Assembly: GCA_902586905.1 (NCBI GenBank) | Contig: CACIJH010000003.1 | Span: 1 to 64,000 of the forward strand | From: an uncultured Bacteroidota bacterium | GTDB taxonomy: Bacteria > Bacteroidota > Bacteroidia > Flavobacteriales > Flavobacteriaceae | Direction: 5' to 3' | DNA: 64,000 nt | Part shown: piece after piece, positions 124-41,216 of the stretch | Position numbering within the stretch: the stretch's first letter is position 1 | Layout: each line of letters opens with the position of its first letter | Notes under the pieces: generated by a model | The model's database searches: none | What the model was told of the DNA's origin: nothing | Seen by the model: the letters and a program-made list of their open reading frames with translations, nothing else | Made by a program: the position numbers and the translations under genes

Positions 124-1020
124 ATGAATCGGGTTAAAAATAGTTTTAGTATCAAAAATCTGGAGCACTTATCCGGAATCAAAGCCCACACAATCAGAAT
201 TTGGGAAAAAAGATACAATCTTTTTGAACCCGAACGAACAGAGACAAACATACGTCTCTACAATTTAAATAGTCTGCAGAAACTCCTCAATGTTTCGATG
301 CTATATAAAAATGGTTTCAAAATTTCGAAAATTGCAAAAATGGAGGCAGATGAAATCAAAAACAAGGTGCACTCCATAACCCTCCAAAAAAGTCCATACG
401 ACTGGTCACTTGGGTTGTTTAAGCTTTCGATGATCAATTTTGATCAACGTTTGTTTACCAACACCTTTGACGAGCTGATAGAAAAAATGAGTTTCGGTGA
501 AATCTTTCAGTCTATTTTCACACCACTCATGATTGAGCTTGGCGTTCTATGGCAAACAAACTCGATTAGTCCCTCGCACGAACACTTTATCACCAGCTTA
601 ATCAAACAAAAAATTCACTCACTCTGCGAAAAACTTCAAGAATCGCAACCAAACCATTCAGACAAAACCTATGTGTTGTATCTCCCAGATAATGAGATTC
701 ATGAGTTGGGGTTGCTGTATTTGAACTATGAAATACTCAATCGAGGATATAAAACAATTTTTTTAGGGCAATCTGTTCCTACAACCAGCTTGTCAAATTT
801 TCTAGAAAAATATGATAAAATGGTCTTTGTGTCCTGCTTTACCATTGAGCCAAACAGCGATCGTGTTAAGGAGTATTTAGATCATTTTGAGCAAGAAGTT
901 TTAGCTGGCGAGGGATCAGAATTATGGATTACAGGCTACCAATTGCAACACATGACAAACCATAAAAATCCAAAAATTCGGATTTTTGAATCTTCAGCAG
1001 ATTTAATAAAAGAGTTATAA
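124..1020 (+). CDS. carH: MerR-family B12-binding photoreceptor repressor (CarH/LitR-like)
   Basis: The 298-residue protein has an N-terminal MerR winged-helix domain (about 8-75, with IRIWEKRY at 25-31) and a C-terminal cobalamin-binding module. W143 is followed by nine residues and then E153-H154, the Wx9EH motif of CarH/LitR proteins that bind adenosylcobalamin. E191-x-H193-x-x-G196 with the downstream LG at 214-215 is the B12 fold motif, and H193 is the expected lower axial ligand. Known CarH proteins repress carotenoid genes in the dark and fall apart on illumination. The next genes, crtB and crtZ, fit that role. An inverted repeat just before the start suggests autoregulation. B12 binding and light response are inferred from motifs. 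Confidence 0.85.
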   Translation: MNRVKNSFSIKNLEHLSGIKAHTIRIWEKRYNLFEPERTETNIRLYNLNSLQKLLNVSMLYKNGFKISKIAKMEADEIKNKVHSITLQKSPYDWSLGLFKLSMINFDQRLFTNTFDELIEKMSFGEIFQSIFTPLMIELGVLWQTNSISPSHEHFITSLIKQKIHSLCEKLQESQPNHSDKTYVLYLPDNEIHELGLLYLNYEILNRGYKTIFLGQSVPTTSLSNFLEKYDKMVFVSCFTIEPNSDRVKEYLDHFEQEVLAGEGSELWITGYQLQHMTNHKNPKIRIFESSADLIKEL

Positions 1021-8323: not shown

Positions 8324-8384
8324 TTTAATTGGGTTTAATTCTCAAAGCTACACATTTCATTCAAACGAATGTATTTTAATTTTT

Positions 8385-8414
8385 TGTTTAATCTTTTTTT
8401 TAATTAATTAAACA
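8385..8414 (+). promoter_or_regulatory. Operator-like inverted repeat TGTTTAA-N16-TTAAACA before the photolyase operon
   Basis: The left arm is TGTTTAA (8385-8391) and the right arm TTAAACA (8408-8414), with a 16-base spacer. As in front of the carH-like gene, the right arm ends exactly two bases before the ATG, so both genes start TTAAACAAAATG. The right half reads AATTAAACA, fitting AnnTnnACA. No exact TAnnTTTG -7 element is seen; TAATTTTTTG at 8377-8386 is the closest. Binding by the CarH-like protein is inferred. Confidence 0.5.
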
Positions 8415-8416
8415 AA

Positions 8417-8896
8417 ATGATATATTTGAAAAAAAAAGTGTACAGCTATACATCAGAGCAAAATTTACCAATCGATATTAAAGAGGCATGGGAATTTTTG
8501 TCAGATCCCAATAATCTAAAGACGATTACGCCAGATTATATGGGTTTTGATATCATTTCGGGTGCAGATCGTAAGATGTTCCCAGGGCAAATCATACAGT
8601 ATATCCTCACTCCTATTCTCAAGATTCCTTTTCGCTGGGTGACTGAAATCACTCATGTCGAACATGAGCGATACTTTGTTGACGAACAACGCTTTGGACC
8701 CTATACTTTTTGGCATCACAAACATTTTATTGAGGAAATCCCCAACGGGGTAAAAATGACAGATATCGTTGATTACAAACTTCCTTTGGGTTTGTTGGGA
8801 CGTTTTGCGCACTGGCTCTTTGTCAAGAACAAAGTGCGATCCATTTTTAATTATCGCGAGCAAAAGCTCGAAAGCATCTTTGGAAAATATAAATAG
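8417..8896 (+). CDS. SRPBCC (START-like) family protein, head of photolyase operon
   Basis: The 159-residue protein has the SRPBCC/polyketide-cyclase pattern. It opens with the strand YSYTSEQNLPIDIKEAWEFLSDPNNLKTITP, the central part includes RWVTEITHVEHERYFVDEQ, and a C-terminal helix (VRSIFNYREQKLESIF) would cover a hydrophobic pocket. There is no signal peptide. It is the first gene of a run in which every later gene lies within three bases of, or overlaps, its neighbour. Similar genes accompany photolyases in other bacteria, but the ligand and role are unknown. Confidence 0.8.
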   Translation: MIYLKKKVYSYTSEQNLPIDIKEAWEFLSDPNNLKTITPDYMGFDIISGADRKMFPGQIIQYILTPILKIPFRWVTEITHVEHERYFVDEQRFGPYTFWHHKHFIEEIPNGVKMTDIVDYKLPLGLLGRFAHWLFVKNKVRSIFNYREQKLESIFGKYK

Positions 8897-8899
8897 AAC

Positions 8900-9592
8900 A
8901 TGAAAAAGAATATCTTATTTATTGGAGGGTCGAGTGGCATTGGCCTCGCAACAGTGAAACTGCTTGCCGAAACCCACGAAGTATATGTAGCCTCTCGGAC
9001 ATCAGAGGCTCTAGCAGGGCTATCCATCAATCATCTCCCTTTTGATGTGACAACTGATGATTTATCAACGCTTGAACTGCCTGATGAATTGACGGGGCTG
9101 GTGTATTGTCCAGGCAGTATCAATTTACGTCCATTTAAAGGGCTTAAGCCAGAAGCTTTTGAAGCAGACTTCAAGATCAATGTTTTGGGCTTTGTCAATT
9201 GCATGCAAGCTGTTTTACCAAAGTTGACTACCAACAGTAGTGTGGTGTTGTACAGTACAGTCGCAGTGAAAGTGGGGATGCCATTTCACGCAAGTGTGGC
9301 TGCATCTAAGGGAGCCCTTGAGGGGCTTGGCAAGTCACTTGCTGCTGAGCTAGCACCCAACACTAGAGTCAATGTGATTGCTCCGTCAATTACCAATACC
9401 CCATTAGCAGATCGCTTTTTGAACAATGAAACAAAAATGGAAAAATCGGCACAGCGACACCCATTGAAGCGTGTTGGCAAAGCTGAAGACGTCGCATCAA
9501 TGACGCGTTTCTTGCTCAGGGATGAAAGCAGTTGGATGACTGGTCAAATCATTGGCTTGGATGGAGGGATGTCATCGCTAAACACACACTAA
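8900..9592 (+). CDS. Short-chain dehydrogenase-like protein lacking the catalytic Tyr
   Basis: The 230-residue protein has the SDR cofactor motif (FIGGSSGIGLATV, 7-19), an NVLG motif near 94 and the C-terminal GQIIGLDGG. The active-site Tyr of YxxxK is absent: the stretch reads HASVAASKGAL, placing K137 correctly but V133 where Tyr should be. Ser/Thr 119-120 fill the usual Ser position. It may bind NAD(P) without classical catalysis or use another acid. It begins three bases after the SRPBCC gene and ends one base before the photolyase start. Confidence 0.85.
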   Translation: MKKNILFIGGSSGIGLATVKLLAETHEVYVASRTSEALAGLSINHLPFDVTTDDLSTLELPDELTGLVYCPGSINLRPFKGLKPEAFEADFKINVLGFVNCMQAVLPKLTTNSSVVLYSTVAVKVGMPFHASVAASKGALEGLGKSLAAELAPNTRVNVIAPSITNTPLADRFLNNETKMEKSAQRHPLKRVGKAEDVASMTRFLLRDESSWMTGQIIGLDGGMSSLNTH

Positions 9593-9593
9593 A

Positions 9594-10895
9594 TTGGATT
9601 CTATTGCATTGTTTTGGTTTCGCAGAGACTTACGTCTAGATGACAATGTGGGTCTTTATTATACCTTGCAGAAAGAAGCGAAGGTACTTCCCATCTTTAT
9701 TTTCGACACTGATATCTTGAGTCGTTTGCCCAAAGACGATGCTCGTGTTTTCTTTTTGTTTCAGCAAATCGAAGATATGAACAGTCAGCTTGCCCAATCA
9801 AAGAAGAAAATTCATGTTTTCAGTGGCAAGCCGATCAATGTATTTAAAGAGATTTTAAAATCAAATAAGGTTCATGCCGTTTACACCAATCGAGATTATG
9901 AACCTTACGCCACTACAAGAGACTCCGAAATCAAAACTCTACTGGAAAAGATCAATATTACTTTCTCAACTTTCAAAGATCATGTCATTTTTGAGCAAGA
10001 CGAGGTCGTCAAGTCAGATGGAACTCCCTATCGTGTATATACACCTTATTCCAGAACTTGGCTGGCTGCCTTTTCAGAGGATAGAGATCTCAAGGACTAC
10101 ACTGTTGGGTCTTTTGAAAAACTTGTGAAACTTACAACACACAACAATCCAAGTTTGTCAGAGATTGGCTTCACAACATCAAAAATTGCTGTGCCGCAAT
10201 ATAATACTTCAAAACAAATCATCGATCAATATGAGGAGTTGAGAAATACACCCTCAGTTGCAGGCACTTCAAAAATAGGAGTTCACTTGCGTTTTGGTTC
10301 TGTGAGTGTTCGAAAAGCAGTTGCCAGAGCATTGCAATCTACAAATCAAACTTTTTTGAAGGAGTTGATCTGGCGTGAGTTTTTTATGCAAATATTATGG
10401 CATTTCCCACACACCGAAAATCAAAGTTTCAAGCCCCAATACGATCGAATAGAGTGGCGCAACAGTCCAGAAGACTTTCAGCGTTGGTGCGATGGCGAAA
10501 CAGGTTATCCATTTGTGGATGCTGGTATGAAGGAAATGAACCAAACTGGATTTATGCACAATCGAGTACGTATGCTTGTTGGTAGTTTTTTATGCAAACA
10601 TTTACTGATCGATTGGCGTTTGGGTGAGGCATATTTTGCCCAAAAGCTTTTGGATTATGAAATGGCGAGTAATGTTGGTAATTGGCAATGGGTCGCAGGA
10701 TGTGGGGTTGATGCAGCTCCCTATTTTAGGGTTTTTAATCCAACAGAGCAAATTAAAAAGTTTGATAAAAACCATGACTACATCAAAAAGTGGGTGCCCA
10801 ACTATCAATCGCCATCTTATCCCAAGCCGATCGTTGATCACAAAATGGCACGAGAGCGTTGTTTGGAAACCTATAAATCTGCCTTAAACAAATGA
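9594..10895 (+). CDS. phrB: Class I deoxyribodipyrimidine photolyase (CPD photolyase)
   Basis: The 433-residue flavoprotein would use blue/UV-A light to split cyclobutane pyrimidine dimers. The N-terminal antenna domain starts ALFWFRRDLRLDDN. The C-terminal FAD domain carries HLRFGSVSVR, ELIWREFFMQILW, GYPFVDAGMKEMNQTGFMHNRVRM and the flavin loop VGNWQWVAGCGVDAAPYFRVFNP with the Asn-containing NWQW segment intact. The start is TTG, one base after the SDR stop. The stop overlaps the next ATG (ATGA). Length is usual for class I enzymes. Confidence 0.93.
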   Translation: MDSIALFWFRRDLRLDDNVGLYYTLQKEAKVLPIFIFDTDILSRLPKDDARVFFLFQQIEDMNSQLAQSKKKIHVFSGKPINVFKEILKSNKVHAVYTNRDYEPYATTRDSEIKTLLEKINITFSTFKDHVIFEQDEVVKSDGTPYRVYTPYSRTWLAAFSEDRDLKDYTVGSFEKLVKLTTHNNPSLSEIGFTTSKIAVPQYNTSKQIIDQYEELRNTPSVAGTSKIGVHLRFGSVSVRKAVARALQSTNQTFLKELIWREFFMQILWHFPHTENQSFKPQYDRIEWRNSPEDFQRWCDGETGYPFVDAGMKEMNQTGFMHNRVRMLVGSFLCKHLLIDWRLGEAYFAQKLLDYEMASNVGNWQWVAGCGVDAAPYFRVFNPTEQIKKFDKNHDYIKKWVPNYQSPSYPKPIVDHKMARERCLETYKSALNK

Positions 10896-11038
10896 GAGGA
10901 GTCAAAAAAGCTGACCTCCCCGAAAAGCTTTGTTTGGTATGTGATCGACCCTTCAAGTGGCGCAAAAAATGGGAAAAAAATTGGACTGAAGTTAAATATT
11001 GTAGTCAAAAATGCAGGAAAAACAAAACACAGCTTTAG
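10892..11038 (+). CDS. DUF2256 zinc-finger-like mini-protein
   Basis: A 48-residue ORF, MRGVKKADLPEKLC... to ...KTQL. It has two CxxC-like pairs (LCLVCDRPF and YCSQKCRKN) separated by a W/K-rich stretch, the DUF2256 pattern that recurs beside cryptochrome and photolyase genes. A bound zinc is likely from the four Cys. Its ATG overlaps the photolyase stop by four bases and its 3' end overlaps the CRY-DASH gene by 28 bases, strong evidence of real translation despite its size. The function is unknown. Confidence 0.85.
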   Translation: MRGVKKADLPEKLCLVCDRPFKWRKKWEKNWTEVKYCSQKCRKNKTQL

Positions 11039-12306
11039 TTTGGTTTAGGAATGATCTTCGGATCGATGACAACCAATCGCTTTATGATGCAACAACAAAG
11101 CACGACAAGGTCATAGGGCTTGTTTTGATAGCAGATTTTTGGTTAAAAGAAACAGCGTTTGGATTCAAAAAAATGGAAGTTTTCAGAGCACGTTTTTTGA
11201 TCGAAACCATTGAAGATTTAAGGCAAGAACTCAAGACATTAAACATCCCTTTGATCGTAAAGGTTGACGATGGAACTTCTTTGAAACAACTTTGCGATCA
11301 ATATCAAATCACTGATTTGTACATGCAAGAGGAATGGACAAAAGAGGAAGTTGATCAAGAAAAAAATATTCCTGATACTGTCATTGTCCACAAGTCTTAC
11401 AGTCAATTTCTATTTCACCCTGATGATCTGCCTTTTGCAATTGAAAATCTTCCTGAAATTTTTACTGTTTTTCGTAAAGCTTGTGAAAAAAATAGTACAG
11501 TTCGACCCTGCACCCCAAAGCCCAGAAAGCTAGCAGACGAAAACGATCAAATTCTATCTAGTAAACCATTGACTTTACAGGAGCTCGGATATGCGCCATT
11601 TGAGATTCACCCCAATAGTGCCTTTCCCTTTCAAGGGGGGAGTCGTGCAGCAAGTGAACGATTAAATCACTATTTTTGGATAACTAAAAAGTTATCTTAC
11701 TACAAGAAAACAAGGAATGGATTATTGGGAACTGATTACAGTTCCAAATTTTCTTCATGGCTAGCAAACGGATCTATCTCTCCCAAATCAATTTATTGGT
11801 CGGTAAAAGATTATGAGCAAGAAATTGGTAAAAATCAATCGACTTATTGGCTCATTTTTGAATTGATATGGAGAGATTATTTCAAGTATGTTTCGTTGCG
11901 TCATGGCAATTCTATTTTCGTTGTTGGGGGAATCAAAAATAGGGAGTATGATTGGCGACAAAATCATCATGTATTCGACCAATGGATAAACGGCTCAACA
12001 GCCGAACCATTTGTGAATGCCAATATGCTGGAACTAAAAAATACTGGGTTTATGAGTAATCGTGGGAGACAAAATGTAGCTAGTTATTTTGCAAAAACAT
12101 TGCAAATGGATTGGCGTTTGGGTGCTGCTTATTTTGAATCCATGTTAATCGATTATGATGTCCACAGCAACTACGGCAATTGGATGTATAACGCTGGAGT
12201 TGGAAATGATCCTAGAGATCGCGTGTTTAATGTAGGCCTACAAGCAGAGCGTTATGATGGAAAAGGGAAATATCAGTCCACTTGGCTGCAAAAAACACTG
12301 TTTTAA
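11011..12306 (+). CDS. Cryptochrome DASH
   Basis: The 431-residue protein fits the CRY-DASH family: N-terminal ALVWFRNDLRIDDN, LIWRDYFKYVSLRHG, TGFMSNRGRQNVASYFAK, and the signature YDVHSNYGNWMYNAGVGNDPR in the flavin loop. CRY-DASH proteins bind FAD and a folate antenna and repair CPDs mainly in single-stranded DNA, sometimes with photoreceptor roles. It starts inside the DUF2256 gene. Its stop TAA shares one base with the next ATG. Confidence 0.93.
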   Translation: MQEKQNTALVWFRNDLRIDDNQSLYDATTKHDKVIGLVLIADFWLKETAFGFKKMEVFRARFLIETIEDLRQELKTLNIPLIVKVDDGTSLKQLCDQYQITDLYMQEEWTKEEVDQEKNIPDTVIVHKSYSQFLFHPDDLPFAIENLPEIFTVFRKACEKNSTVRPCTPKPRKLADENDQILSSKPLTLQELGYAPFEIHPNSAFPFQGGSRAASERLNHYFWITKKLSYYKKTRNGLLGTDYSSKFSSWLANGSISPKSIYWSVKDYEQEIGKNQSTYWLIFELIWRDYFKYVSLRHGNSIFVVGGIKNREYDWRQNHHVFDQWINGSTAEPFVNANMLELKNTGFMSNRGRQNVASYFAKTLQMDWRLGAAYFESMLIDYDVHSNYGNWMYNAGVGNDPRDRVFNVGLQAERYDGKGKYQSTWLQKTLF

Positions 12307-13838
12307 TGGAAGTTCGACTCATTCTTGGCGATCAACTCAATACCGAACACAGCTGGTTCGAGCAAGTCAATAGCGATGTGATTTATGTGATGTTTGAAAT
12401 GCGTCAGGAGACAAACTATGTCAAACATCATATACAGAAAGTCGTTGCCTTTTTTGGCGCCATGAGAAACTTTGCAAAAGCAAGAGAAAACGAAGGTCAT
12501 CAGTTTTTGTATTACACCCTCGATGACCCTGAGAATGAGCAAGATCTAACGTCTAATCTCAACAAAGTCATTTCACTTTTAGACGCAAATCGGTTTGCGT
12601 ATCAACTGCCGGATGAGTTTCGCCTAGACGACCAACTTCGTTCGTTTTGCAAGGGCTTAAGCATTCCTTCAAAGTCATATGACTCTGAACATTTTCTCAC
12701 CACAAGAGACGAGATGGCGCATTTTTTTGAAGGCAAAAAAAAATGGGTAATGGAGTTTTTCTATCGTTATATGCGTAAAAAATTTGATATCCTCATGGTG
12801 CATGACCAACCAGAGGGCGGGTCGTGGAATTATGATAAATTCAATCGCAACAAATGGAATGGATCTCCTGATATCCCAACTCCGTTTTATCCAAAAGTTG
12901 ATAATATCGATGTCATACAGAAAATGATTGAAGATGAGGGAATCAAAACACTTGGAACTTTCTCGAAAGACGATTTTCTCTTTCCAGTGACAAGAGAAGA
13001 AAGTATCGCCCAACTCGATTACTTTTGCGAGCATCTTCTTGCGCATTTTGGTACCTATCAAGATGCAATGCATCAAAAGCAAACCAATCTTTTTCATGCG
13101 AGAATATCTTTTGCCTTAAATGCAAAAATCATCAATCCACTCGAGGTGATAAACCATGCGGTTGATACTTATAGAAAACAGCCAGATGTCATTTCCCTTT
13201 CTCAAGTTGAGGGTTTTGTCAGGCAAGTGCTGGGTTGGCGTGAATACATCAGAGGGTTGTATTGGAAGGAAATGCCCTCTTACAAAAAGTTGAATGCTTT
13301 GGAAAACAACAACCCCCTTCCAGATTTCTATTGGACTGGAAAAACAAAGATGAATTGTCTGAGCACAACCATAAAAAATAGTTTAGAACACGCATATGCT
13401 CATCACATTCAAAGGCTTATGATTACTGGAAATTTTGCGCTACTTGCGCAAACCCATCCTGATGCTGTCGACGAGTGGTATTTGGGTATATATGCAGATG
13501 CTGTCGAATGGGTACAACTCCCAAATACGCGGGGAATGAGTCAATATGCAGATGGTGGTATGGTTGCTACCAAACCTTATGTTTCCTCGGGGTCTTATGT
13601 CAATAAGATGAGTAACTATTGTTCGTCGTGCAGCTATAACAACAAAAAGAGATTGGGAGATGACGCTTGCCCATTTAATAGCCTCTATTGGAATTTTTTA
13701 GATGATAAAAAAGACCAGCTCAAAAACAACAATCGCATGGGAATGATGCTGAATCTGTTGCGAAAAATCAATCCAGAGGAGTTGGCTGCCATCAAAACAC
13801 GAGCTTACGAAATCATTGCCAATCCCGATGCCTACTAA
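12306..13838 (+). CDS. Iron-sulfur bacterial (6-4) photolyase / cryptochrome (FeS-BCP)
   Basis: The 510-residue protein begins MEVRLILGDQL, the family's typical start. Four Cys at positions 351, 439, 442 and 455 match the 4Fe-4S ligands of Agrobacterium PhrB (Cys 350, 438, 441 and 454, as I recall). Other blocks are WREYIRGLYW and LEHAYAHHIQRLMITGNFALL. Family members repair (6-4) photoproducts and bind FAD and a lumazine antenna, whose precursor enzyme RibH is encoded nearby. I chose the ATG at 12306 over a TTG at 12282 that would reach into CRY-DASH. Confidence 0.92.
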   Translation: MEVRLILGDQLNTEHSWFEQVNSDVIYVMFEMRQETNYVKHHIQKVVAFFGAMRNFAKARENEGHQFLYYTLDDPENEQDLTSNLNKVISLLDANRFAYQLPDEFRLDDQLRSFCKGLSIPSKSYDSEHFLTTRDEMAHFFEGKKKWVMEFFYRYMRKKFDILMVHDQPEGGSWNYDKFNRNKWNGSPDIPTPFYPKVDNIDVIQKMIEDEGIKTLGTFSKDDFLFPVTREESIAQLDYFCEHLLAHFGTYQDAMHQKQTNLFHARISFALNAKIINPLEVINHAVDTYRKQPDVISLSQVEGFVRQVLGWREYIRGLYWKEMPSYKKLNALENNNPLPDFYWTGKTKMNCLSTTIKNSLEHAYAHHIQRLMITGNFALLAQTHPDAVDEWYLGIYADAVEWVQLPNTRGMSQYADGGMVATKPYVSSGSYVNKMSNYCSSCSYNNKKRLGDDACPFNSLYWNFLDDKKDQLKNNNRMGMMLNLLRKINPEELAAIKTRAYEIIANPDAY

Positions 13839-15306
13839 GTCAGAAGTATCGGTTTTTTGGTTTAAGAGAGATCTTAGGGTTCTCGATAACCCTGCGCTTC
13901 AAGCTGCTGTAATTGACCCTACACCTACCCTTTTGGTATATAATTTCGAACCTCTATTGACAGAGAACCATCACTATGACAAAAGACATTGGCAATTTGT
14001 ATTCGAAAGTTTGGAGGAACTCAATCATTTCTTTTCCCAATATGACACAAGAATCCTCATGAGCAGTTCAGACATACTGCAAACGTTTGAAGAAATACAG
14101 AAGCAATACACGATCAAAACGATATACAGTCATCAAGAAACTGGGCTTGCTTGCACCTATGCTAGAGATCAAGAGGTGGCTGAGTTTTGTAGTTCAACAT
14201 CGATCAAATGGAAAGAGTTTACGAATAATGGTGTTTTTCGGGGTTTGTCGAATCGAAAAAATTGGCGTAAAAAGTGGTATCAGTTTATGTCAGAACCCAT
14301 ACAAAAATGGGAAGCAACAAAGGAAGCATTTGTATCTATCGCTGCGATAGATGAGATCAATTTGCGACCTTTTGAATGGGCAAAACATACGACCGATCAA
14401 ATTCGCCAAAAGGGTGGCACAAAGCAAGGACTTGCCTATTTGAATAGTTTTATAAATGATCGTCATAAGTCGTATCAAAACTCGATTTCAAAGCCAGAAT
14501 TATCACGAAAAGCTTGTAGTCGATTATCTCCATATATTTCTTGGGGCAACTTGTCGGTTCGCTATGTTTGGCAAACTGCCGAGCAGGCCAAACGAAAGGG
14601 AGCATCGAAATTTCAACTCAATGCTTTCACATCAAGATTGCGATGGCAAGCCCACTTTATTCAAAAGTTTGAGATGGAGGATCGAATGGAGTTTGAGAGT
14701 ATCAACAAAGGATATGCATCACTGGACAAAGCAGTTGATGAAAGTTTGATACAAGCCTGGAAAGATGGGCAAACAGGCTTTCCATTGGTCGATGCATCCA
14801 TGCGATGTTTGGCCCAAACAGGTTACATCAATTTTCGAATGCGTGCGATGTTGGTATCGTTTTTCACCCATCATTTGTGGCAACCCTGGCAACTAGGCGT
14901 TTCACATCTGGCAAAACAGTTTTTAGATTTTGAACCTGGCATTCATTATCCTCAATTCCAAATGCAAGCAGGTGAAACTGGTATTAATATGTTGCGAATC
15001 TACAATCCAGTAAAAAATAGCTTAACACATGACCCTGAGGGGGTTTTTCTTTGTAAATGGGTTCCAGAGTTGAGTAAGCTTCCATTGCATCTACAGCATG
15101 AACCTTGGAATATCACAGCTATTGAGGAAGAACTTTATGATTTTTCTCTGGGGAAAGACTATCCTAAACCTGTTGTTGACTTACAAACTGCAGCAAGACA
15201 TGCTTCCAAGCAACTTTGGTCGATAAAAGGATCTGCAAAAGTCAGGAAAGAATCGAAACGCATACTTCTAAAGCACACATTGGCAGATAGAAACAACTTT
15301 GATTAG
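13828..15306 (+). CDS. Photolyase/cryptochrome-family protein with divergent flavin loop
   Basis: The 492-residue protein has the photolyase N-terminal domain (SVFWFKRDLRVLDNPAL) and FAD domain (SRLSPYISWGNLSVR, GQTGFPLVDASMRCLAQTGYINFRMRAM). The loop that reads NWQW...DAAPYFRIFNP in class I enzymes here reads FEPGIHYPQFQMQAG...IYNP (about 368-394), so the Asn facing flavin N5 is not in its usual context. This is a distinct subfamily I cannot name with certainty, and repair activity is unproven. I chose the ATG at 13828 over the TTG at 13816. It overlaps the preceding gene by 11 bases. Confidence 0.88.
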   Translation: MPTKSEVSVFWFKRDLRVLDNPALQAAVIDPTPTLLVYNFEPLLTENHHYDKRHWQFVFESLEELNHFFSQYDTRILMSSSDILQTFEEIQKQYTIKTIYSHQETGLACTYARDQEVAEFCSSTSIKWKEFTNNGVFRGLSNRKNWRKKWYQFMSEPIQKWEATKEAFVSIAAIDEINLRPFEWAKHTTDQIRQKGGTKQGLAYLNSFINDRHKSYQNSISKPELSRKACSRLSPYISWGNLSVRYVWQTAEQAKRKGASKFQLNAFTSRLRWQAHFIQKFEMEDRMEFESINKGYASLDKAVDESLIQAWKDGQTGFPLVDASMRCLAQTGYINFRMRAMLVSFFTHHLWQPWQLGVSHLAKQFLDFEPGIHYPQFQMQAGETGINMLRIYNPVKNSLTHDPEGVFLCKWVPELSKLPLHLQHEPWNITAIEEELYDFSLGKDYPKPVVDLQTAARHASKQLWSIKGSAKVRKESKRILLKHTLADRNNFD

Positions 15307-39218: not shown

Positions 39219-39250
39219 CAAATATATATTATGTTTAACTTTCTTACAAA
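39219..39250 (-). promoter_or_regulatory. Bacteroidota-type promoter reading toward the FabH-like gene (TTTG-N20-TATATTTG)
   Basis: On the minus strand TTTG (39250-39247) and TATATTTG (39226-39219) are separated by 20 bases, identical in spacing to the tRNA-Met promoter. The predicted start is near 39213. Operator arms of the inverted repeat at 39232-39261 fall between and beyond the two elements. Confidence 0.7.
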
Positions 39251-39261
39251 TTAATTAAACA
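39232..39261. promoter_or_regulatory. Third operator-like inverted repeat TGTTTAA-N16-TTAAACA
   Basis: The arms are TGTTTAA at 39232-39238 and TTAAACA at 39255-39261, with a 16-base spacer as at 8385-8414. The right half reads AATTAAACA, the same as in the photolyase operon site. It covers the -33 element and spacer of the minus-strand promoter and lies 77 bases before htpG on the plus strand. The regulated gene could be the FabH-like gene, htpG or both. Confidence 0.5.
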
Positions 39262-39338
39262 AAAAATATTAAAGTGTCATCTTGTCAGGGGGCAAACAAT
39301 GGTATTTTTTTTGCTAATACAACTGTAAATTTTAAAAA

Positions 39339-41216
39339 ATGAGTACAGGAAAAATTAATGTTGCAGTTGAAAATATCTTTCCACTAATCAAAAAATTTCT
39401 ATACAGCGATCATGAAATCTTTTTGAGAGAGTTGATTTCAAATGCAACAGACGCAACACTAAAACTAAAGCATCTCGCCCAAATAGGAGAAGCAAAAGTT
39501 GAGTATTGCAACCCACTGATTGAAGTCAAGGTTGACAAAAAAGGAAAAAAACTCCACATTATTGATCAGGGGGTTGGGATGACATCTGATGAAGTCAATA
39601 AATATATCAATGAAGTTGCCTTTTCTGGTGCAGAGGAGTTTTTGGAGCAATACAAGGACAGCGCGAAAGACAGTGGCATTATCGGACACTTTGGTTTAGG
39701 GTTTTACTCGGCCTTTATGGTTGCCAAAGAAGTTGAGATTATCACCAAATCATACAAAGATGAGCCAGCAGCCCATTGGACTTGTGATGGGTCTCCCGAA
39801 TTCACCTTGAAAAAGCATGACAAAAAAGAAAGAGGTACAGAAATCATTTTGCACATCGACAAAGATTCGAAAGAATTTTTGGAAGACACGCAGATTCGTT
39901 CTTTACTCACAAAGTACAACAAGTTTATGCCCATTCCTATCAAAATGGGTACAAAAGAAATTGCAAAGACTGAAGGGGATGGTGATGATGCCAGGGAAGT
40001 AAAAGAAGTTGTAGATGATATCATCAATAACCCCTCACCTGCTTGGATTCAAAAACCGACAGATTTGAAGGATGAAGATTATAATGATTTTTATCGAGAG
40101 CTATATCCGACGCAATTTGAAGAACCTTTATTTCAAATACATCTCAATGTTGACTATCCCTTTCACCTCACTGGAATTCTCTATTTCCCAAAAATTTCCA
40201 ACGATTTAAACTTTCAAAAGGATCGTATTCAACTCTATCAAAATCAAGTGTTTGTCACTGATAATGTAGAAGGGATTGTACCAGAATTTTTGACCATGCT
40301 TCGTGGTGTTATCGATTCTCCAGACATTCCTTTAAACGTGTCTAGAAGCTATTTGCAAGCAGATGGAAATGTCAAAAAAATTAGCAATTATATCACTCGA
40401 AAAGTAGCAGACAAGCTCAAATCACTCTTCAAAAAAGACAGAGAGGCTTTCCAAGAAAAATGGAATGATATAAAAGTTGTGATTGAGTACGGCATGCTTT
40501 CAGAAGACAAGTTCTTTGAAAAGGCAAAGGATTTTGCACTGTTTCCAACCACAACAGGCGACTATTTCACTTTTGAGGAGCTGAAAGAACAAACAAAAGA
40601 TGCGCAAACCGATAAAGACGGAAAGCTTGTTCAGCTTTACGCATCAAATATAGATGAGCAACATGCATATATCGAAGCTGCAAAAGCAAAAGGATACACT
40701 GTCTTATTGCTTGATTCACCAATTGTGAGTCATCTTCTTCAAAAATTAGAAACAAATGAAGAAAATCTCACCTTCACAAGGGTGGATGCAGATCAAATCG
40801 ATAAGCTTATTGTTAAAGAAGATTCAACGCCATCAAAATTGAGTGAAGAAAATCAAGAAAAACTCAAAACACTTGTTTTGGGAATCGTACCAAAAGCAAC
40901 CTATACTGTACAACTCGAACCAATGGACAGTAAAGCTTTGCCGTTTTTGATTACGCAACCTGAGTTTATGCGAAGAATGAAAGAGATGCAGCAGACAGCT
41001 GGAGGTGGTATGTTTGGTGGAAATATGCCAGAAATGTACAACCTGATTGTAAACATGAACCATCCATTAGTCAGTCAGATTTTAGAAACGAAAACGAAGA
41101 AAAAACAAGAACGACTGATCAAACAATCTGTCGATCTTGCACGACTGAGCCAAAACCTGTTGAAAGGAGAAGAACTCACTTCCTTTATCAATCGAAGTTT
41201 TGACATGATCAAATAA
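39339..41216 (+). CDS. htpG: Chaperone HtpG (Hsp90)
   Basis: A 625-residue ATP-dependent chaperone. The GHKL ATPase N-domain shows FLYSDHEIFLRELISNATDA, IIDQGVGMT and GLGFYSAFMVA. The middle domain has FPLYNVSRSYLQAD-type features (IPLNVSRSYLQAD). The C-terminal dimerisation domain is MRRMKEMQQ onward with a short gap typical of Bacteroidota. A strong terminator follows. It is divergent from the FabH-like gene. Confidence 0.95.
   Translation: MSTGKINVAVENIFPLIKKFLYSDHEIFLRELISNATDATLKLKHLAQIGEAKVEYCNPLIEVKVDKKGKKLHIIDQGVGMTSDEVNKYINEVAFSGAEEFLEQYKDSAKDSGIIGHFGLGFYSAFMVAKEVEIITKSYKDEPAAHWTCDGSPEFTLKKHDKKERGTEIILHIDKDSKEFLEDTQIRSLLTKYNKFMPIPIKMGTKEIAKTEGDGDDAREVKEVVDDIINNPSPAWIQKPTDLKDEDYNDFYRELYPTQFEEPLFQIHLNVDYPFHLTGILYFPKISNDLNFQKDRIQLYQNQVFVTDNVEGIVPEFLTMLRGVIDSPDIPLNVSRSYLQADGNVKKISNYITRKVADKLKSLFKKDREAFQEKWNDIKVVIEYGMLSEDKFFEKAKDFALFPTTTGDYFTFEELKEQTKDAQTDKDGKLVQLYASNIDEQHAYIEAAKAKGYTVLLLDSPIVSHLLQKLETNEENLTFTRVDADQIDKLIVKEDSTPSKLSEENQEKLKTLVLGIVPKATYTVQLEPMDSKALPFLITQPEFMRRMKEMQQTAGGGMFGGNMPEMYNLIVNMNHPLVSQILETKTKKKQERLIKQSVDLARLSQNLLKGEELTSFINRSFDMIK

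Follow-up and report, generated by a model that had tools for sequence, protein, structure and literature searches.

Does a MerR-type regulator encoded at the edge of a flavobacterial contig sense light through adenosylcobalamin (AdoCbl), in the manner of CarH, and which genes would respond to it? The question is raised by an open reading frame at positions 124-1020 (+) of the window, the whole 64,000-nucleotide stretch of DNA analyzed here (C3:1-64000 of a 1.35-Mb assembly, G000, that is 69.8% complete). Among named relatives, Flavobacteriaceae bacterium UBA5950 is the nearest (94%); it is taken as a sister genome of the same genus (G192). A sequence-only reading of the locus had proposed that the protein carries the residues that place the adenosyl group and the lower axial ligand in CarH, and that it senses green, blue or UV light. 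The analysis described below makes it probable that the protein is a CarH/LitR-type, AdoCbl-dependent repressor of a photoprotection regulon from which it would be released by light. Ahead of the gene, positions 1-60 resemble the end of a tRNA gene whose 5' part is cut off by the contig start, without an ARAGORN call, and the contigs of several relatives likewise start just upstream of the regulator.

The regulator and its conserved residues

The reading frame starts with ATG, encodes 298 amino acids (ORF translation), and is assigned to the CarH/LitR type by Pfam, motif search, an AlphaFold model, and structure comparison. Its domain order is a MerR helix-turn-helix (HTH, about residues 8-74), a four-helix bundle with the Wx9EH motif (143-154), and a Rossmann part with the ExHxxG motif (191-196). 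A regular-expression search of the translation located Wx9EH as WQTNSISPSHEH at 143 (W143, E153, H154) and ExHxxG as EIHELG at 191 (E191, H193, G196), exactly the residues that the sequence-only reading had listed. Two Pfam families match above cut-off, MerR_1 (4e-13) and B12-binding_2, the four-helix cap (5.5e-10); PF02310, the B12-binding Rossmann domain, gives no match in the regulator in the Pfam scan, a point that the earlier reading had missed. The closest solved structures by sequence are those of Thermus LitR/CarH (3whp, 5c8d), at about 1e-11 over residues 8-228, and the NCBIfam CarH model matches with 1.9e-17 and 63.5 bits, a score that does not reach the curated cut-off of 400.

Residue conservation was counted in 107 distinct flavobacterial orthologue sequences, window included, and in 13 of a divergent paralogue group; the orthologue set consists of the best 30 plus hand-picked sequences, and covers part of the 150 genomes that carry an orthologue. 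W143, E153, E191, H193, G140 and G215 are invariant (107/107). H152, directly before E153, is present in 102/107 and G196, with the D/ExHx2G/P lower-ligand motif, in 100/107, while H154 is kept in 94/107, which is also the strict Wx9EH count, and is replaced by Arg in 10. This conservation, together with the two Pfam matches above cut-off, indicates that the agreement with Wx9EH and ExHxxG is not due to chance. The classical B12 motif, which includes x41-SxT/V-x22-27-GG in the available text of PMC9304148, is not matched by the regulator in its remaining part, where the spacing is 40, the sequence is SCFT, and a single glycine, G271, occurs; among the orthologues, SxT/V is found in 0/107 at the aligned place (7/107 under a loose search) and GG in 2/107. 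The SignatureFinder light signature (PMC11796333, available text) is represented in part, by GxxW, EH and GxxxP, with GxxH absent (N190; G in 10/107 orthologues). W143 is followed by Gln in 101/107 orthologues and by His in four; this position aligns with His132 of Thermus thermophilus CarH (TtCarH), the upper ligand of the light state, whose replacement in H132A mostly blocks tetramer disassembly (PMC10442372, available text). In the divergent paralogue group (L087-L097 and L100, 30-39% identity), Wx9EH is present in 12/12 and Gly, Thr or Ser replaces Gln144.

The AlphaFold2 model of the regulator, obtained from an alignment of 56 sequences (the window and 55 related loci), has a pLDDT of 86.4 and a pTM of 0.79. 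Every one of its top 12 Foldseek matches is a full-length TtCarH chain, and the comparison with Thermus CarH that the earlier reading had suggested as a check came out in its favor, the cobalamin domain of TtCarH being the best VIA-align match (Z 18.2, rmsd 2.4 Å, 195 aligned), followed by CtMerR (17.8) and SasPcob (17.2), with MetH (1bmt; 14.3) and AppA (14.1) lower. Since AppA, used in the available text of PMC11796333 as a light-sensitive flavoprotein without cobalamin, is also among the structural matches, the shared fold alone is no demonstration of cobalamin binding.

Cofactor supply in the family genomes

A survey of 199 genomes of the family found a regulator-type match in 162. In 150 of these it is an orthologue, with E values under about 1e-55, and the remaining 12 show no more than a divergent or weak match. 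PF02310 occurs in 192/199 (190 over cut-off), the PduO-type adenosyltransferase PF01923 in 184/199, and methylmalonyl-CoA mutase PF01642 in 177/199, leaving 22 without the latter. The window genome encodes the adenosyltransferase at C2:12367-12858 (TIGR00636 over cut-off), and its incomplete assembly yields neither a PF02310 nor a mutase match. Among the 22 mutase-less genomes, the enzyme is present in 12/13 with an orthologue vs 1/9 without (12/1/1/8; Fisher 2.4e-4), the exceptions being G064 (99% complete), which has the regulator but no transferase, and G180, where the reverse is true. Across the full set of 199 genomes, the figures are 146/150 and 38/49. A phylogenetic control, a tree of 19 ribonucleotide reductases (RNR), is mostly unresolved and offers 3 pairs on supported branches, about 1.9 of them agreeing and 0 opposing; because it is so poorly resolved and gives no significance, the association of regulator and adenosyltransferase is not proven free of shared ancestry. 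The reductases of G065 and G149 (L273, L274) are of a different and very distant type, about five changes per column separating them from those of the other 17 genomes. At the order level, mutase-less genomes are dominated, among the matches listed, by one family of 600-kb genomes.

Other consumers of the cofactor were sought in the same genomes. PF02310 has no match in G000, G192 and G067 (70, 78 and 87% complete), all with orthologue and adenosyltransferase, and G165 (89% complete, likewise with both) shows one weak match of 7.8e-5; if MetH is ancestral and independence is assumed, multiplying the fractions missing from the four assemblies gives about 0.001 for its chance loss in all of them, which speaks against such a loss. 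Class II RNR (NrdJ) was rejected as an alternative AdoCbl user, with 0/22 mutase-less genomes over cut-off and sub-cut-off matches equal with and without the adenosyltransferase. No MetH, mutase or class II RNR over cut-off was found in the two genomes of the genus to which the window belongs or in two nearby ones, and all four have kept the adenosyltransferase.

As regards uptake, a cobalamin riboswitch was detected in 11/26 genomes examined, namely 10/12 mutase-less genomes with regulator and transferase, plus G180; it was found in 0/13 transferase-less genomes examined, and neither in G000 nor in G067. Among these four genomes of the genus and its vicinity, two have the riboswitch before a TonB receptor, whose best NCBIfam match in the sister genome G192 is TIGR01779 (vitamin B12 receptor, 2e-47, below cut-off); the survey for B12 genes that the sequence-only reading had recommended has revealed a riboswitch and a BtuB-like receptor in a close relative. 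Riboswitches before TonB receptors are seen at L252 1501-1690 and L244 1501-1687, in genomes without MetH or mutase, and in L252 a DUF6580 gene lies divergent beside the riboswitch. A tentative suggestion for this streamlined marine lineage, to which we give less than even weight, is that AdoCbl is imported and activated only for light sensing, the regulator being its sole client, with a changed tail pocket and no bis-His light state.

It could also be envisaged that the regulator responds to light independently of B12, the cobalamin fold being a relic. Light would then be perceived either by a partner, namely a LOV protein or a cryptochrome belonging to the regulon, or, as CarA does, by way of singlet oxygen. 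The alteration of SxT/V and GG across the whole clade would fit such a scheme, as would the operation of class II LitR with a LOV partner (PMC9758184, available text) and the retention of the regulator in four genomes without a detected adenosyltransferase (G008, G048, G062 and G064), which the alternative enzyme PF02572, found in 0/28 genomes, does not rescue. However, all four keep W, E, H, E and H, adenosyl-contacting and ligand residues that a relic would not keep; the Rossmann part that is missing from class II LitR is present here; and the adenosyltransferase tracks the regulator among mutase-less genomes. This explanation is improbable. The four genomes argue against a strict one-to-one dependence, or for the import of ready-made AdoCbl.

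The inverted repeat and its candidate regulon

At three places in the genome, an inverted repeat, TTGTTTAA-N16/17-TTAAACAA, stops 1 nt short of a start codon. The first, a perfect match with N17 at 90-122, precedes the regulator ATG; the second, with N16 at 8384-8415, precedes the ATG at 8417 and is kept in UBA5950/G192 (L161); the third lies on contig C4 before the ATG of msrA, which is followed by folE. All are proposed as operators. With spacers of 10-22, these are the only places in the whole assembly, where a reversed control pattern occurs once, and Markov copies of the window (40 copies) hold 0.0 perfect sites per 64 kb. The ORF at 39339-41216, HtpG/Hsp90-like by eye, is preceded at a distance of 76 bp by a one-mismatch copy (39231-39262) and is a possible further target; such a copy is within chance expectation (about 0.9 sites/64 kb at <=2 mismatches).

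The genes behind the sites in the window fall into two units. The regulator gene is followed by a crtB-type phytoene synthase (1092-1931, +; SQS_PSY 9.9e-48) and by an FA_hydroxylase-family protein (1935-2384, +; PF04116 8e-13), probably a crtZ-like carotenoid hydroxylase to judge from its position. A site of its own was considered for crtB and rejected: before this gene there is only a lone half-site TTGTTTAA (1075-1082, +), with no full palindrome and missing in most close relatives. The second unit, 8417-15306, is a run on the + strand that opens with an SRPBCC-like protein (8417-8896; sub-threshold Polyketide_cyc 0.055 only), the first gene of a photorepair operon, and continues with a short-chain dehydrogenase (SDR; 8900-9592; Pfam) and four photolyase/cryptochrome-family proteins, at 9594-10895 (PF03441 1.1e-75, PF00875), 11011-12306 (PF03441 4.3e-37, PF00875), 12282-13838 (photolyase-related, DPRP family; PF04244 8.7e-72), and 13816-15306 (PF03441 3.8e-62, PF00875). 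Between two of these genes, at 10893-11039, lies a small Cys-containing ORF of about 48 codons, shorter than the limit set for the ORF list and zinc-ribbon-like by eye.

The repeat accompanies the regulator across the family. With spacers of 14-18 it is found in 137/199 genomes, and is present in 131/150 orthologue genomes vs 6/49 others (Fisher 3e-22); the six comprise three with a divergent or weak match and three incomplete ones without a match (G022, G079, G147). Genomes with only the divergent paralogue form are without the repeat in 9/11 cases. In 16/16 close relatives examined, it stands before the regulator ATG, the half-sites being kept with few single changes; in L168 it is found with spacer 17 and not with spacer 16. 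By a rule of <=2 mismatches, 47/89 orthologue loci have a site up- or downstream of the regulator and 42/89 have none, so that this layout is common, not universal. Among crtI-type starts in the fetched loci, 45/93 have the repeat (<=3 mismatches; 46 without position limit) and the other 48 do not, its position being mostly 1 nt inside to 3 nt before the ATG. Other genes behind it in relatives are msrA, fasciclin lipoproteins, and SDR genes. In L039, L040, L041, L044, L048, L050, L055 and L056 (around 1501-1573), the repeat is flanked by a gene that by eye resembles mnmA and by a lipoprotein gene in divergent orientation; the lipoprotein that was scanned, the one of L041, has a fasciclin domain, and so do target-side proteins in L035, L037 and L054. 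Some fasciclin proteins bind carotenoids.

These target genes bear on the idea that the protein reports B12 supply by the same chemistry, without any role for light. Such a status sensor would explain the co-occurrence of regulator and adenosyltransferase equally well; nevertheless, all three target units have carotenoid, photorepair or oxidative/photo-damage functions, and 0/3 repeat sites precede a B12 gene, which makes it quite unlikely. A further point concerns TAnnTTTG, which we take to be the Bacteroidota -7 promoter element: it lies between the half-sites, adjoining the second one, in 34/41 crtI-type sites with spacer 16, so that part of the repeat region is promoter, and is absent from the window sites. 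This motif might suggest that the palindrome is the site of a different factor, or simply an AT-rich element of promoters, and that the regulator has another function. Such a reading is very unlikely, given that the reversed pattern occurs in 18/199 genomes against 137 for the repeat, that the repeat tracks the orthologue and is missing in 9/12 genomes with a divergent or weak match only, and that half-sites are conserved while spacers vary.

Proposed mechanism and relation to known systems

A light-released, AdoCbl-dependent repressor would operate as follows. In the dark, AdoCbl would sit between two parts of the regulator, the four-helix bundle with W143, E153 and H154 on one side and the Rossmann part with H193, the lower ligand, on the other, and the bound oligomer would occupy the inverted repeat, covering the promoter as far as the start codon. 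On illumination, the Co-C bond would break and the repressor would leave the DNA; the SDR-photolyase operon, msrA-folE and the regulator's own gene, the last probably along with crtB-crtZ, would be released together, giving access to carotenoid, photorepair, methionine-sulfoxide repair, and pterin genes, with the regulator under negative autoregulation. Repression rather than activation is suggested by the position of the sites and by the family.

The earlier proposal of light sensing through AdoCbl is thus plausible and strengthened by genome context, and unproven. In its favor stand the CarH fold, the invariant adenosyl-contacting and lower-ligand residues, the predicted photoprotection regulon, the riboswitch and BtuB-like receptor of the sister genome, and the fact that genomes lacking other AdoCbl users keep the adenosyltransferase when they have the regulator; what does not hold is a simple equation with Thermus CarH, in view of His132 -> Gln and the absence of SxT/V and GG, and of G064, in which the regulator keeps its four key residues and neither adenosyltransferase nor riboswitch is found. 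The association with a cofactor enzyme and the regulon motif are the new parts. A literature search, mostly without subscription papers, found no article describing a flavobacterial CarH-like clade or the repeat, and none joining CarH, Bacteroidetes, MerR, cobalamin and light; an earlier description is possible. Should the mechanism be true, most Flavobacteriaceae, major surface-ocean heterotrophs, would rely on vitamin B12 for light-dependent photoprotection, and some of the B12 that they need would serve sensing, not metabolism. The clade might also account for light-induced carotenoids in Bacteroidota, as in Chryseobacterium lacus, where the available text of PMC7064467 reports no regulator found, and would show a CarH-like protein with Gln replacing the light-state histidine. 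The repeat itself is a ready regulon motif for testing.

The closest known system is CarH, or class I LitR (Thermus thermophilus, 5C8D, 5C8E), with which the regulator shares the order of MerR HTH, four-helix bundle and Rossmann part, Wx9EH, ExHxxG, and a carotenoid gene adjoining the regulator gene. It differs from TtCarH in being 16% identical in structural alignment, in having Gln for His132, and in the absence of SxT/V and GG. The operator also differs: TAAACA inside each half-site (e.g., TTAAACAA) fits TnnACA, the CarH operator core (PMC9304148, available text), yet the halves are inverted, about 24 bp centre to centre with a 16-17 bp spacer, whereas known CarH has tandem 11-bp direct repeats; regular 11-bp direct repeats of TnnACA were not seen here, and the inverted repeat explains the sites better. 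Photorepair genes and msrA-folE are among the targets proposed here, a further difference from CarH. The cobalamin photoreceptors SasPcob and CtMerR (8J2W/8J2X, 8JBS/8JBT) are close in structure (Z 17.1-17.8). In SasPcob, a photoreceptor tested as such, the His132 place is likewise taken by Gln (PMC11796333, available text), which renders Gln compatible with light sensing, although a different light state is to be expected; SasPcob differs in a predicted biliverdin-binding region described in the same text, and CtMerR in having Arg at that place.

Class II LitR of Pseudomonas (PplR1-3, PmlR2) resembles the present system in its light-induced target set, photolyase PhrB, SDR, FolE and the cryptochrome-like CryB, and in spaced 6-bp elements, TGTACA-N12-TGTACA, but consists of the four-helix bundle only, the Rossmann part being lost, and PmlR2 has a LOV partner (PMC9758184, available text); LitR classes I-V are presented in the available introduction of that article with no Bacteroidota named. 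CarA of Myxococcus has the same domain order and acts on a crt promoter; the contrast with B12-independent paralogues drawn by the sequence-only reading is fair, in that CarA keeps the B12 motif and EH without the Trp of Wx9EH (PMC9304148, available text), whereas W143 is kept throughout the orthologues here. Since the regulator departs from CarH in three features, the rest of the B12 motif, the curated score, and the direct-repeat operator, it is best regarded as a member of a CarH-like clade and not as a plain CarH.
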